A stretch of DNA of 64,000 nucleotides, taken from NCBI GenBank assembly GCA_021806645.1, contig JAJZQX010000008.1, positions 124,001-188,000 of the forward strand. The letters are read 5' to 3'. This document shows, piece after piece, positions 50,650-55,429 of the stretch (position 1 is its first letter; the number at the start of each line of letters is the position of its first letter). The position numbers were made by a program, and so were the translations under genes. Origin of the DNA: Myxococcales bacterium. Lineage in GTDB: Bacteria; Myxococcota; Myxococcia; Myxococcales; Anaeromyxobacteraceae. The notes under the pieces are model-generated. The model ran no database searches. It had not been told where the DNA came from and saw only the letters and a program-made list of their open reading frames with translations.

Positions 50650-50955
50650 ATGAAAGACATCGTCGCCCACGTCGTCGCCGCCTCCCTGGCCCTGTTCGTG
50701 CTCACCGGCGGACCGGCCGGCCAGTCGGCCGCGATGCCGGCCCCGAAGGCCGCGGAGCCGGTCAGGGGCGTGGCCGCCACGCCGGCGGAGCCGGGGAAGG
50801 GCGCCGCGGCGGCGAGGGCGGCGCCGGGCAAGCCAGCTGCTCCAGGGCATGCGACGGACCCGGGCAAGGCCGTGGCGCCGGTGAAGGCGGCGGAACCGTC
50901 CAGGGCGGCCGATTCCAGGCCTTGCGAGCCGATCAAGCCCTGTGCGATCGACTAG
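50650..50955 (+). CDS. Small exported Ala/Pro/Lys-rich protein
   Basis: 101 residues from the ATG at 50650: signal peptide MKDIVAHVVAASLALFVLTG, then a low-complexity chain of Pro/Ala/Glu/Lys repeats (APKAAEP, ATPAEPGKG, APGKPAAPGH, APVKAAEP) and a final CEPIKPC pair of Cys. The terminal Cys pair next to a disulfide-forming enzyme gene is suggestive. An in-frame ATG at 50584 lacks a signal peptide. No family recognised. Confidence 0.6.
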   Translation: MKDIVAHVVAASLALFVLTGGPAGQSAAMPAPKAAEPVRGVAATPAEPGKGAAAARAAPGKPAAPGHATDPGKAVAPVKAAEPSRAADSRPCEPIKPCAID

Positions 50956-50971
50956 CGCCACCACCCCGTCG

Positions 50972-52117
50972 ATGGCCCGCAAACCCGTGACCCCGCCGCC
51001 CACGCCGCGCGCCGCCTTCGCGGTTTCGCTGGCGCTCGCCCTGGCCGGGCTGGTGCTGTCCGTCATGCTGGTTCGCGTCCATCGGGACGCCGCGGCGGGG
51101 CTGACCAGCTTCTGCACCATCAGCGAGGAGATCAACTGCGACAAGGTCGCGCTGAGCAGCTGGTCGATGCTGTTCGGCGTGCCGGTGGCGGCCTGGGGCG
51201 TCGCCGGCTACGCGTTCGCCGCGGCCCTGTCCGCGTGGGGGCTCTCGACGAGGCGGCTCCACGCGCGCTGGCCGGCGGGGCTGCTGGCGGTGTTCGGTGC
51301 CTTCGCGACGGTGGGGTCGGTGGCGCTGGCGCTCGCCTCCAAGCTGGCGATCGGCGCCTGGTGCCTGCTCTGCATGGGGTCCTGGGCGGCCTCGGTCGGG
51401 CTGCTCGTCTCCGGGTGGCTGGCGTGCCGTCCGGTCGGCATGTCGGCGTCGGTGCGGGCCGACCTGAAGGCGGCGGGTCGTCAGCCGCGCCGGGCGGCGG
51501 TGATCCTGGTCGCGGGGCTGATCGGGCTGCTGGTGCTGGTCGTCGAGGCGAGGCGAGGCGAGGCGGGCCCGAAGCCCCCGGGCGCGTCGCCGGCGGCGAC
51601 CAGCCCGGCGGCGTTGCCGCGGTTGCCGGCCGCCACGGGGCCGGCGGTGCTCTTCAGCGACTACGAGTGTCCGTTCTGCGCGCTGGCCCACGACGAGCTG
51701 CGCGAGATCCTGCGACAGCGGCCGGACATCCAGGTGGTGCGGCGCAACTTCCCGCTCGACCAGGCGTGCAATCCGATCTTGAAGCGACCGATGCACCTGC
51801 GGGCGTGCCAGCTGGCCCGGGCCGCGATCTGCGCCGAGGCGCAGGGGCAGTTCGAGGCCATGGACGACGCGCTCTACGCGAGCCAGCGGGCGCCGGTGCC
51901 GGTGGAGGAACTGGCGTCACGGCTGAAGCTCGACGTGAGGCGCTTCGAGGCGTGCCTCACGGCGCCGGCGACCCAGGCCCGGCTGGCCGCCGACATCCAG
52001 GCGGGGATGGAGGCGAAGCTGCGCTCGACCCCCACCTACGTGGTGGACGGGACGCTGTATGAAGGGAAGCTGCCCCTCGGGCGGTTTCCGCCCCCACCCC
52101 CGCCCGGCCGAGAGTAG
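50972..52117 (+). CDS. VKOR-DsbA fusion, disulfide bond formation
   Basis: 381 residues from the ATG at 50972 (a GTG at 50942 is an alternative). The first half is a four-to-five-helix vitamin K epoxide reductase domain with the loop pair CTISEEINC and the active-site pair CLLC. A linker helix follows (AVILVAGLIGLLVLVVEA), then a DsbA/DsbG-type thioredoxin domain with SDYECPFCALAH and cis-Pro in RSTPTYVVDG. It should oxidise exported proteins and pass the electrons to quinone in one polypeptide, replacing DsbA plus DsbB. Confidence 0.9.
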   Translation: MARKPVTPPPTPRAAFAVSLALALAGLVLSVMLVRVHRDAAAGLTSFCTISEEINCDKVALSSWSMLFGVPVAAWGVAGYAFAAALSAWGLSTRRLHARWPAGLLAVFGAFATVGSVALALASKLAIGAWCLLCMGSWAASVGLLVSGWLACRPVGMSASVRADLKAAGRQPRRAAVILVAGLIGLLVLVVEARRGEAGPKPPGASPAATSPAALPRLPAATGPAVLFSDYECPFCALAHDELREILRQRPDIQVVRRNFPLDQACNPILKRPMHLRACQLARAAICAEAQGQFEAMDDALYASQRAPVPVEELASRLKLDVRRFEACLTAPATQARLAADIQAGMEAKLRSTPTYVVDGTLYEGKLPLGRFPPPPPPGRE

Positions 52118-52123
52118 GACCGA

Positions 52124-53731
52124 CTACTCCCGGTCGGGGCGAGGACGTCGTTCGCCCGATGGCTCCGGAAGCAACCCCTCGTCCAGCAGCTGCAGCGCGA
52201 TCGCCAGGGCCTTCCGCGCCTTGTCGCGAACCTTCTCGTCGCCCTTGATCTTCAGGTACGCCTTGACGACCCGCTCCTCGTTCTTGGCGTTGGCCGCCTC
52301 GAGCTCGGAGATGCGCAGCTTCAGGTCGGCCACCCCCTGATCGACCTCCGACCGGGCTCCGTCCAGCTCACCTCGCGTCACGATCAGCTCGGACTCGAGC
52401 CGCTCGACCTCCCGCTCCACCTCCACCAGCCGCGTGGCCGAGGCCTGGGCCGCGGCCAGCTCCACCGACCTGGCGGCGAGCGCCGCCGCCGCTTGCTCGG
52501 CGGCACGTCGCTGCGTGGCGGCCTCCTGCTCGGCGCCGCGGCACCGCCCCTCGGCGCTGGCCACCTTGGCGGCCGCCAGCGCCGCCGCCTCGCCCGCCTG
52601 CTCGCCCGCCCGCCGGGCCTCTTCGCGCGCCGTCCTGGCATCGGCTTCGGCCTTCTTGGTCTGGGCGGCCAGCGCATCCCCGCGGGCCTTCTGCGAGGCC
52701 GCCTGGGCCTCCTTCTCACCCAGGGCCGACTCCAGCACCTCGGCGCGCCTGAGCGCCGCGTCCAGCTTCGCCCTCAGCTCACCTGGATCGGCCTGCCGTG
52801 AGTCGAGCGAGTCGAGCGCGTCGAGCGCGTCGAACGCGGTCCGGGCCGGGGGACCCGGAGCGCCGTCCAGCGCTCCTAGCGCCAGGTCGGCCTCGTCCCC
52901 CAGGCCCGCCAGGTCGGCGCGAGCGCCGGTTTCATCCTCCGCGGGGAGCGAGGCCGAGGCGGCCTCGAGGTCTTCGGACGTCACCGGACGATCGACGCCC
53001 AGGGCCTTCTCCATCGCCTCGCCGGCCGCCCTGGACTCGTCATCGGCCGTGGTCGAGCCAGGGGCCGGGGATCGAGGCGAGGTCGGTGGCGCCGGCGACG
53101 CCGCGGGGGACGAAAGGCCGTCGAAGGCGTCGTCGAGCAGCTTCAGGTCTTCGTCGAGCTCGCCGCCATCGGCGGATGGCGCGGCCGGCTCATCCGGGAG
53201 GGAGTCGAGATCGAGCGCGGGCAAGTCCTGTCCCGGCTCCCCCGCGAACGGCTCGAGCCCCGATTCCTCCTCGAGGCTCACCACCTCCTCGTCCGCGCCG
53301 TCGACGGCCTCCGCGGGCCGGGACGCGGTAGGAGGCGGGTTGGCGGCGCCCCCCCCCGGCACGCCGATCAGCTCCCCCAGCTTCTCCAGCAGCGAGGCCG
53401 ACAGGTACGGCTTGATGAGGTAGTCCTCGGCGCGGACCCTCAACTTCCTGTGATCCTCGAAGACCTCCTCGGTCGCCTCGGAGCTGGTGAGGATGAGCGG
53501 GATGGCCCGGAGGGCGTCGTCCTTCTTGAGCTTGTTGCAGATGGAGTAGCCGGAGAGCCTGGGCAACTCGACGCAGAGCACGATGGCGTCCGGCTTCAGT
53601 TCCCTGGCGAGGTCGAGCCCCTCCTTGCCGTCGCCGGTGACGTGCACCTGGTAGCCCATCGCCTCGAGCGCGCCGGACATCTCCCCGGCGAAGGCCGCGT
53701 CGTTCTCGATGAGGAGGATGGTCTTCGACAT
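52124..53731 (-). CDS. FrzS-like protein: pseudo-receiver plus coiled coil
   Basis: 535 residues from the ATG at 53731. The receiver-like domain (1-125) begins MSKTILLIENDAAF and includes GYSICNKLKKDD and HRKLRVRAEDYLIKP, close to FrzS of Myxococcus, a polarity protein for type IV pili motility. The phospho-acceptor site is Cys (VLC53VELP), and the acidic pair is Glu-Asn, so it is a pseudo-receiver as in FrzS. An acidic Pro/Ser/Ala linker (about 130-330) leads to about 170 residues of coiled coil and a short basic tail. Likely works in polarity or motility by protein contacts, not phosphorylation. Confidence 0.85.
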   Translation of the reverse strand: MSKTILLIENDAAFAGEMSGALEAMGYQVHVTGDGKEGLDLARELKPDAIVLCVELPRLSGYSICNKLKKDDALRAIPLILTSSEATEEVFEDHRKLRVRAEDYLIKPYLSASLLEKLGELIGVPGGGAANPPPTASRPAEAVDGADEEVVSLEEESGLEPFAGEPGQDLPALDLDSLPDEPAAPSADGGELDEDLKLLDDAFDGLSSPAASPAPPTSPRSPAPGSTTADDESRAAGEAMEKALGVDRPVTSEDLEAASASLPAEDETGARADLAGLGDEADLALGALDGAPGPPARTAFDALDALDSLDSRQADPGELRAKLDAALRRAEVLESALGEKEAQAASQKARGDALAAQTKKAEADARTAREEARRAGEQAGEAAALAAAKVASAEGRCRGAEQEAATQRRAAEQAAAALAARSVELAAAQASATRLVEVEREVERLESELIVTRGELDGARSEVDQGVADLKLRISELEAANAKNEERVVKAYLKIKGDEKVRDKARKALAIALQLLDEGLLPEPSGERRPRPDRE

Positions 53732-53805
53732 GAGCGTCCCTGCCCGCACTTACGAGAGCCGGAGGAGCGGCGGCAAGCGCGCAGCGCTCCGGAAAGATTG
53801 GAGAA

Positions 53806-53919: not shown

Positions 53920-54744
53920 TCAGGGTCCGGGGGAGGAGGCCTTGACCATCTTGATCAGGTCGTCTTCGTCCGAGTCGGAGACCAGCGAGTAGACGGTGTG
54001 GTCCTGGCGCCAGACCACGGTGTTGTAGCCGCGCGAGTTGATGATCCGCGCGTGGTGCGTGCCGATCTCCACGTCTCGACCGCCCGCGTCGAAGCGTCCA
54101 TCGGGGTCGTCGACGATGAAGAGACCGGCCTGGCGGCCGCGGGGCAGCTCGTACCTGATGTAGGCCGCGGGCAGCTCGCGAAGGTTGGAGATGCGGGCGC
54201 CGACCACCCTGGCCTGCTGGTCGGCGAAGTGGGGGGCGTTGGGCTTGAAGTCGAGCTTGCCCGCGAACCACGCCGGGATCTTGTCGGGCGCCACCGAGGC
54301 GGTGGTCACCTCGAGCGGCAGGTCGCGGTGGTGCTTGCGGACCGCCTCCTCGACCAGCTGGCCGCCGGGGCCATGACCGGCTACCACCACCAGCACGGCC
54401 GCGGCGGTCGCGGCGGCGGTGGCCAGCGGGAAGGGGGCGAGGAGCCTGCGCCAGAACGGGCGGCGCTCGCGCTCCAGGGCGGTCGAGACGCGGCGCCGCA
54501 GGGCCTCGGGGGCACGGCCGAACCTCGACGTCGGCCCCATCGCCTCCCGCAGGGCGGCCTTCAAGGCGCGCCGGGCCTTCCCCTGGGTCGCCGCCAGCGC
54601 CTCGCAGCGCGCGCAACCAGCGAGGTGGACCTCGGCCTCGGCACGCTCGCGCGGCTCGAACTCGTCGTCGAGGAAGGCATCCACCGAGCGCTCGAACTCG
54701 GCGCAGTCCATCATGGCGAGCGTGGTGGTGTGGGTGGTGCTCAT
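53920..54744 (-). CDS. Zinc-type anti-sigma factor with periplasmic domain
   Basis: 274 residues. The ATG overlaps the sigma stop (ATGA). The N-terminal anti-sigma domain has the zinc motif HLAGCARC (H-x3-C-x2-C), as in redox-sensing RsrA-type factors. A membrane helix near residues 112-130 ([17 protein letters not shown]) separates it from some 140 residues outside, with alternating strands ([36 protein letters not shown]). It should hold the sigma factor until a signal, perhaps thiol oxidation at the zinc site or an envelope signal, frees it. Confidence 0.88.
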
Positions 54745-55391
54745 GGCGCAGACCCCGTTCGGCTGCGACGGCGGCGGTGTTCGGCCAGGTCCTCGACGCT
54801 GGCGTCCTCGCCGGTGAAGAGACCCGACTCGGCGGCGTAGCCCGCCAGCGCCGTCTGGAGCAGCCGGCGGCCACGGAAGAGCCGGCTCATCACCGTGCCC
54901 ACCGGCACGTCGAGCACGTCGGCGATCTCGCGATAGGAGAACTCCTGCAGGTCGGCGAGTATCACCACCATGCGGAAGTCGAGGGGGAGGGCATCGACCG
55001 CCTTGAGCACGTCGTCGGAGAGGACGCGGTCGAAGTACCAACGCTCGGGATCCGCGGCGGCGTCGGCGGCGTCGCGGGACACCAGCTGCCCCTGCACCGC
55101 TTGCTGTTCGGGCCCGTCCACCAGCGTCCGCTCCTTGGTGCTCCGGCGGTAGCGGTTGATGAAGGTGTTGGTGAGGATCTTGAACAGCCACGCCTTGATG
55201 TTGGTGCCCCGCTCGAAGCGGTCGAAGAAGCGGTAGGCGCGGAGCAGGGAGTCCTGGACCAGGTCCTCGGCGTCTCGCTCGTTGCGGGTGAGCCGGACCG
55301 CCGCGCCGTACAGCGCATCGAGGTGGCGAAGCGCCAGCGCCTCGAACTCGTCGCGGGTCAGGTCGTTCTGGCGGTCGTCGAAGATGCCCAT
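54741..55391 (-). CDS. ECF sigma factor, SigR/ECF12-like
   Basis: 216 residues. Region 2 ([20 protein letters not shown], then [12 protein letters not shown]) and region 4 ([20 protein letters not shown], then LFRGRRLL) match the Streptomyces SigR (ECF12) pattern closely; [12 protein letters not shown] is diagnostic. In that family the sigma answers thiol oxidation and reads GGAAT-N18-GTT promoters, and exactly such a site lies upstream. First gene of a two-gene operon with its anti-sigma. Confidence 0.92.
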
Positions 55392-55402
55392 TCTTTCTCG
55401 TC

Positions 55403-55429
55403 AACCCGCCGCGGCCAAGGGTGATTCCC
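55403..55429 (-). promoter_or_regulatory. SigR-type promoter, probably self-recognised
   Basis: Minus strand GGGAAT (55429-55424), 18 bases, then GTT (55405-55403), the exact GGAAT-N18-GTT pattern of SigR-family sigma factors. The transcript would start only a few bases before the ATG at 55391. Confidence 0.55.

Follow-up and report, generated by a model that had tools for sequence, protein, structure and literature searches.

The systems closest to the locus described here are SigR/RsrA (SigH/RshA) of Actinobacteria, which belongs to ECF12, RsiW/SigW of Bacillus subtilis, and sigma-E/RseA/RseB of Escherichia coli (AlgU/MucA/MucB). RsrA is a soluble anti-sigma factor, to whose sensitivity the residues E39, E40, L45, and E46 contribute, according to PMC5358783, and an N-terminal cysteine is argued in PMC4960319 to be key for redox sensing. 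RsiW is presented in PMC5358783 as a redox-insensitive membrane protein with a CHCC site; its ligands are disputed, being HHCC in PMC4960319 and CHCC in PMC5358783. A zinc motif is common on membrane anti-sigma factors: PMC7406223 reports it for about 48% of those that are membrane-bound and of class I, holds that it may be structural, and states that the anti-sigma factors of group AS12 are all from Actinobacteria. RseA is without a zinc site, and RseA and RseB are two different proteins.

The locus lies in a window of 64,000 nucleotides, the whole stretch of DNA that was analysed, which corresponds to positions 124,001-188,000 of a contig in the 4.14 Mb genome of a Myxococcales bacterium. 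It shares with SigR/RsrA the sigma sequence, a GGGAAT-N18-GTT-type promoter, the CHCC site, and the adjacency of the two genes, and differs from it in that the anti-sigma factor carries a predicted membrane helix and an outer domain, that the family cut-offs were missed, that trxB falls outside the inferred regulon, and that the redox-flank residues are absent. The CHCC zinc domain, a single membrane helix, and an outer part are shared with RsiW/SigW, the best profile match in the PDB, whereas the Gram-negative host, the outer domain, which spans about 150 residues and has a modelled RseB-C-like fold, and the SigR/SigH-like sigma factor are not. The likeness to sigma-E/RseA/RseB lies in the type of regulon inferred, with HtrA, SurA-like, cell-wall, and small-RNA members, and in the predicted fold of the outer domain, which may resemble the C-terminal domain of RseB/MucB; the zinc site, the promoter, the placement of an RseB-like domain within the anti-sigma factor itself, and the lack of sequence similarity between the outer domain and RseB set the two apart. 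We consider that the locus probably encodes an order-wide, sigma-E-like envelope-stress system that uses SigR-type promoters and lies beside a frzS-like gene. Its features are as follows.

54741..55391, minus strand: ECF sigma factor, SigR/SigH-like, 216 aa, from Pfam, NCBIfam, and PDB matches
53920..54744, minus strand: zinc-binding, membrane-anchored anti-sigma factor, 274 aa, with zf-HC2 and DUF4367 above cut-off
55403..55428, minus strand: GGAAT-N18-GTT promoter-like site 5' of the sigma gene, conserved
54604..54705, minus strand: CHCC zinc site (C14, H40, C44, C47), within the cytoplasmic part of the anti-sigma factor
54376..54432, minus strand: predicted membrane helix, anti-sigma residues 105-123
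53923..54372, minus strand: extracytoplasmic domain, anti-sigma residues 125-274, modelled with an RseB/MucB C-terminal-domain-like fold
52124..53737, minus strand: FrzS-like receiver with a long tail, the next gene 3' of the anti-sigma gene, on the same strand
50942-52114, plus strand: fusion of VKOR with a thioredoxin domain of DsbA type, close to the sigma operon
G000:C6:142733-142807 (L228), elsewhere in the host genome: variant of the C-rich RNA described below

The sigma and anti-sigma genes overlap in the sequence by an ATGA, which contains the stop of the former and the start of the latter. An anti-sigma relative was present in 24/24 genomes of the family Anaeromyxobacteraceae, the sigma gene was present in 38/38 further genomes of the order, chosen by us, and an anti-sigma relative adjoined the sigma gene in 30/30 loci of the order that were retrieved; the pair is order-wide. 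No account of the pair or of the C-rich RNA was found in the Anaeromyxobacter literature covered, which excludes most subscription journals. Some relatives (L026, L027, and L029) also had a second pair of a sigma factor and a membrane zinc anti-sigma factor, with a sigma about 42% identical. In the sigma factor of the window, Sigma70_r2 and Sigma70_r4_2 both scored above the Pfam cut-off, and the best of 93 matching NCBIfam families was TIGR02947 (SigR/SigH). The best PDB match was Mtb SigH, with 158-159 bits, as compared with 99.7 for SigE. The SigR signature motifs named in the initial annotation are thus borne out as a best-family likeness and fall short of family membership, since the score of 173.1 bits for TIGR02947 is under the cut-off of 251.55. 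A SigR/SigH-like identity of the sigma factor is supported at the level of protein sequence.

In the anti-sigma factor, Pfam zf-HC2 scored 34.8 bits against a cut-off of 22.2, and the same family was matched by 20/20 members. The segment H40-LAG-C44-AR-C47 forms the H-x3-C-x2-C motif, C14 is the fourth ligand of the CHCC site, and none of the four residues varied in the two alignments, which had 20 and 21 rows. The most hydrophobic 19 residues were 105-123 (Kyte-Doolittle maximum 2.01), the AlphaFold model placed a helix at 106-122 with low confidence, and about 150 residues after this helix are predicted to lie outside. The zinc motif and the combination of a membrane helix with about 140 outer residues, which the initial annotation had set against the soluble RsrA, were accordingly recovered, the latter with a slightly longer outer part. 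When a profile of the anti-sigma relatives was compared with the PDB, RsiW (28.5 bits) ranked above RsrA (24.3) and RslA (chain 3hug; 21.8), and a distant relative from another family, f6, also scored RsiW over RsrA; the single protein as query yielded no informative PDB relative. The RsrA family TIGR03988 was matched with 30.5 bits, below the cut-off of 62.5. The RsrA redox-flank residues E39/E40/L45/E46, with numbering based on PMC5358783, correspond to A42/G43/E48/A49 in the window; among 20 aligned anti-sigma factors, E occupied the first of these positions in 2/20, and the other three positions were unmatched in all. DdvA of M. xanthus, considered as the same anti-sigma factor, gave a weak profile match (E 0.33) and was unmatched by the f6 relative.

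The outer part was modelled by AlphaFold as an alpha-beta domain, with a mean pLDDT of 85 for residues 125-274 alone and 76 for the whole anti-sigma factor. The top VIA matches were the C-terminal domains of RseB and MucB, both for the whole-protein model (Z 9.3, rmsd 2.7, 92 aligned) and for the model of residues 125-274 (Z 8.9, rmsd 2.6, 95 aligned to RseB 218-315). In the latter, the top six rows had Z 8.7-8.9 and the next fold Z 8.0; Thermotoga TM1622 came next, with Z 8.3 and 8.0 for the two models, which leaves RseB a small margin of about one Z. Foldseek also ranked RseB first, with E 1.4e-3 for the whole protein and 4.7e-4 for residues 125-274. Homology to RseB by sequence was rejected, as hhalign against the lone sequence of E. 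coli RseB gave a probability of 0.18 on a percent scale, and no RseB or MucB Pfam family was among the matches. The models are suggestive of a fold, and a fold only, shared with the C-terminal domain of RseB/MucB.

The sigma gene is preceded by the site GGAATCACCCTTGGCCGCGGCGGGTT at 55403-55428(-), 37 nt before its ATG. In the host genome, 18 of 34 matches to GGAAT-N17-19-GTT had the spacing of 18, and the strict GGGAAT-N18-GTT had three matches, lying before the sigma gene, before one TonB/ExbB operon, and within a coding frame. A self-site in one genome alone is weak evidence, and it is conservation that makes it significant. The exact GGAAT-N18-GTT reported in the initial annotation was present within 300 nt 5' of the sigma gene in 19/24 loci of the family, that of the window included, against 0.02 expected by first-order Markov resampling. 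The other five comprised three loci with GGAAC-N18-GTT, one with GGAAG-N18-GTT (read by eye), and one whose upstream region ends at the contig end. Each of the family's six genera had the self-site, genus g5 with one base changed, and GGAAC-N18-GTT replaced it in one genus. It lay between about 35 and 134 nt from the aligned start, and the spacers varied, with the -35 and -10 letters constant. In seven further families of the order, the self-site was present in 10/10 loci. GGAAT-N18-GTT was found in 0/20 loci upstream of the sigma gene in f6; 18/20 of these loci (L243-L263) carried GGAAT-N17-GT[A/C], a pattern defined post hoc. Chance as the origin of the self-site was ruled out by this conservation and by the recurrence controls given below. 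Taken together, the letters of the site are of SigR type and conserved, and the site looks functional.

Across the 24 family genomes, GGGAAT-N18-GTT gave 172 matches, whereas spacings N14-22 totalled 736, which leaves 70.5 per other spacing (hand-summed) and shows spacing 18 to be in excess across these genomes. A reversed-pattern control was lower still, with 24 matches, a number biased by the rarity of TAA in such genomes. Recurrence of the gene following the site was compared in three genomes, using 33 of 34 N18 sites (one tandem site sharing a region was dropped) and, as the control, 60 of 62 sites of other spacing (of the two dropped, one lay where a contig begins and the other overlapped an N18 site). 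The gene recurred across genomes at 18/33 N18 sites versus 6/60 control sites (Fisher p 8.5e-6), and at 15/30 versus 6/60 when the sigma gene itself was left out (p 5e-5). N18 sites within coding-like frames, at 17/33, were above the controls, at 20/60, and recurring N18 cases also included close pairs within coding sequence. GGGAAT-N17-GTT sites likewise recurred before matching genes across genomes (L278/L328; L285/L299), perhaps as a second spacing class.

Candidate targets were read from 92 of the 172 N18 sites in 13 genomes, picked by hand among the matches listed, together with 17 sites from the window's genome; GC3, rather than a gene finder, served to call the gene starts and coding frames. 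Among the matches listed, N18 sites preceded the sigma gene itself (7), MotA/TolQ/ExbB and TonB-like operons (7, one of them in the host genome), an HtrA-like protease (5), a Slt-like TPR protein (3; Slt read by eye, with Pfam matching TPR only), a PBP1A transglycosylase (2, in two genera), and a SurA_N-DsbA fusion (2). Another 11 sites, from 9 genomes, lay at the region that holds the C-rich RNA together with a small RHH-like gene. The SurA_N-DsbA protein, a SurA-like N-terminus joined to a DsbA-like thioredoxin, was observed in genus g5 (L171 and L182) near trxB, with the N18 site upstream. For the HtrA-like trypsin gene, an N18 site near -35 was present in 8/11 loci, one locus had N19, and two had none; the gene was absent from genus g1. 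A Pfam scan of 30 downstream proteins also returned MdoG and D-Ala-D-Ala ligase, each a candidate target in single genomes, as well as GH16, HlyD, and Polysacc_synt. Fumarase, an aminotransferase, Lon, and a glycyl-tRNA synthetase fragment were non-envelope genes following N18 sites. An FKBP lipoprotein was rejected as a conserved target, the site being found in 1/30 FKBP loci, that of the window's genome. The regulon is thin in the window's own genus, and the evidence comes mostly from relatives.

The C-rich RNA consists of GGGCCTAGGGGTCCCCCCCCTCCCCCTCTGGGCCCA followed by a terminator-like hairpin. It was found in 102/195 Myxococcota genomes searched, nearly always as a single copy, and further loci are L187-L200, L225, L227, and L229-L241. 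An alignment of 19 copies showed an almost invariant first hairpin, and 5/23 predicted pairs were kept through two-sided changes, all in the second hairpin. GGAAT-N18-GTT lay 5' of the RNA in 12/14 family loci and 13/13 f6 loci (0.05 and 0.06 expected from the same resampling), the family count not being independent, as the RNA had been found there via N18 sites, and the f6 loci having been retrieved only with the RNA as query. Often there was also another N18 or N19 site 5' of the RNA. In f6, the RNA sites keep N18-GTT while the sigma self-site has drifted, and in the window's own genus, the N18 site was seen by eye in 0/3 RNA loci. Nine loci gave no match at gathering score to a known Rfam family. 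The RNA resembles Pxr, the small RNA of Myxococcus, in its C-rich first hairpin and its myxobacterial origin; the probe printed in PMC5568312 implies a different sequence after the C-run, and on this basis an identity of the two RNAs was rejected.

The initial annotation had read the pair as a thiol-stress system and had proposed a genome search for the promoter site before thioredoxin-type genes. In this search, GGAAT-N18-GTT was found within 350 nt upstream in 0/30 trxB loci of the family (trxA was outside the search), and one of the 30 carried GGAAC-N19-GTT. In a true SigR/RsrA-type system, C14 would be oxidized with C44 or C47, zinc would be ejected, and the freed sigma factor would turn on thiol-repair genes, as might be expected from a sigma factor nearest to SigR/SigH, a promoter of SigR type, four invariant ligands, and the occurrence of SurA_N-DsbA and Lon among the candidate targets; the SurA_N-DsbA gene near trxB in g5 comes closest to a connection with thiols. 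We regard such a system as very unlikely, given the trxB result, the missed cut-offs of the SigR and RsrA families, the better match to RsiW than to RsrA, the absence of the redox-flank residues, the envelope character of the candidate targets, and an anti-sigma factor with a predicted membrane helix and a conserved outer domain. The VKOR-DsbA neighbour, considered as a conserved thiol partner, recurred in 0/16 loci of relatives, some of them too short to show it. The thiol-stress reading is therefore weak. A joining of redox and envelope signals is possible, since C14, which corresponds to RsrA Cys11, does not vary: the outer domain would report envelope damage, and the CHCC domain would separately report cytoplasmic disulfide stress. 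Both modules are conserved across the order, and the key role argued for the N-terminal cysteine in PMC4960319 would fit; RsiW, however, is insensitive despite the same CHCC according to PMC5358783, the flanking residues differ as described, and no thiol-reduction genes were found among the candidate targets. Such a dual sensor is unlikely, and a redox input to the anti-sigma factor is possible but unsupported.

The sites might instead belong to another ECF sigma factor of the genome, with the sigma factor of the window having other targets. The host genome contains 19 sigma-70-family matches, the -35 elements of ECF sigma factors are alike, and the divergence between self-site and RNA sites in f6 would also be compatible with this; the presence of the site before the sigma factor's own gene in six genera of the family (with the changed base in g5) and in seven other families argues against it and makes it quite improbable. 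Another alternative arises from the gene next to the pair. A FrzS-like ORF lay 3' of the pair in 15/16 family loci and 26/30 loci of the order, and that of the window had M. xanthus FrzS (2gkg) as its best PDB match (E 7.2e-24). Given this neighbour, M. xanthus RpoE1, whose gene we take to be located near frzS, is a candidate for the counterpart of the sigma factor. As PMC6791715 describes rpoE1 as "involved in motility", the sigma factor might be mainly a regulator of motility or development, with the envelope genes as a side branch. The candidate targets are nevertheless envelope genes, and none of the 30 annotated target proteins was a motility protein, so that this role seems unlikely as well.

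In the envelope-stress mechanism that we infer, a single-pass zinc anti-sigma factor would hold the ECF sigma factor inactive at the inner membrane, with its cytoplasmic CHCC domain gripping the sigma factor. Envelope damage would be sensed by the outer RseB-C-like domain itself or by some partner of this domain, and would lead to regulated proteolysis or to conformational release. The freed sigma factor would then read the GGGAAT-N18-GTT promoters, transcribing its own operon and envelope-repair genes and, in many relatives, the C-rich small RNA. A more elaborate picture, which we hold only tentatively and which is doubtful in its entirety, would combine a SigR-like sigma factor and promoter, a zinc clamp of RsiW type with a possible role in sensing disulfide stress, an RseB-like domain fused in cis, and an undescribed two-hairpin RNA arm, occurring once per genome in much of the order behind the same, often tandem, sites, as the counterpart of the small-RNA arm of sigma-E; together these would form a myxobacterial envelope guard.

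The locus serves as a warning that thiol stress should not be deduced merely from the presence of a SigR-like sigma factor, a promoter of SigR type, and a CHCC site. If the envelope-stress reading is true, an ECF system found throughout the order would gain a function, a promoter, and a list of targets, and the C-rich RNA would become a candidate myxobacterial envelope-stress small RNA with defined promoters.
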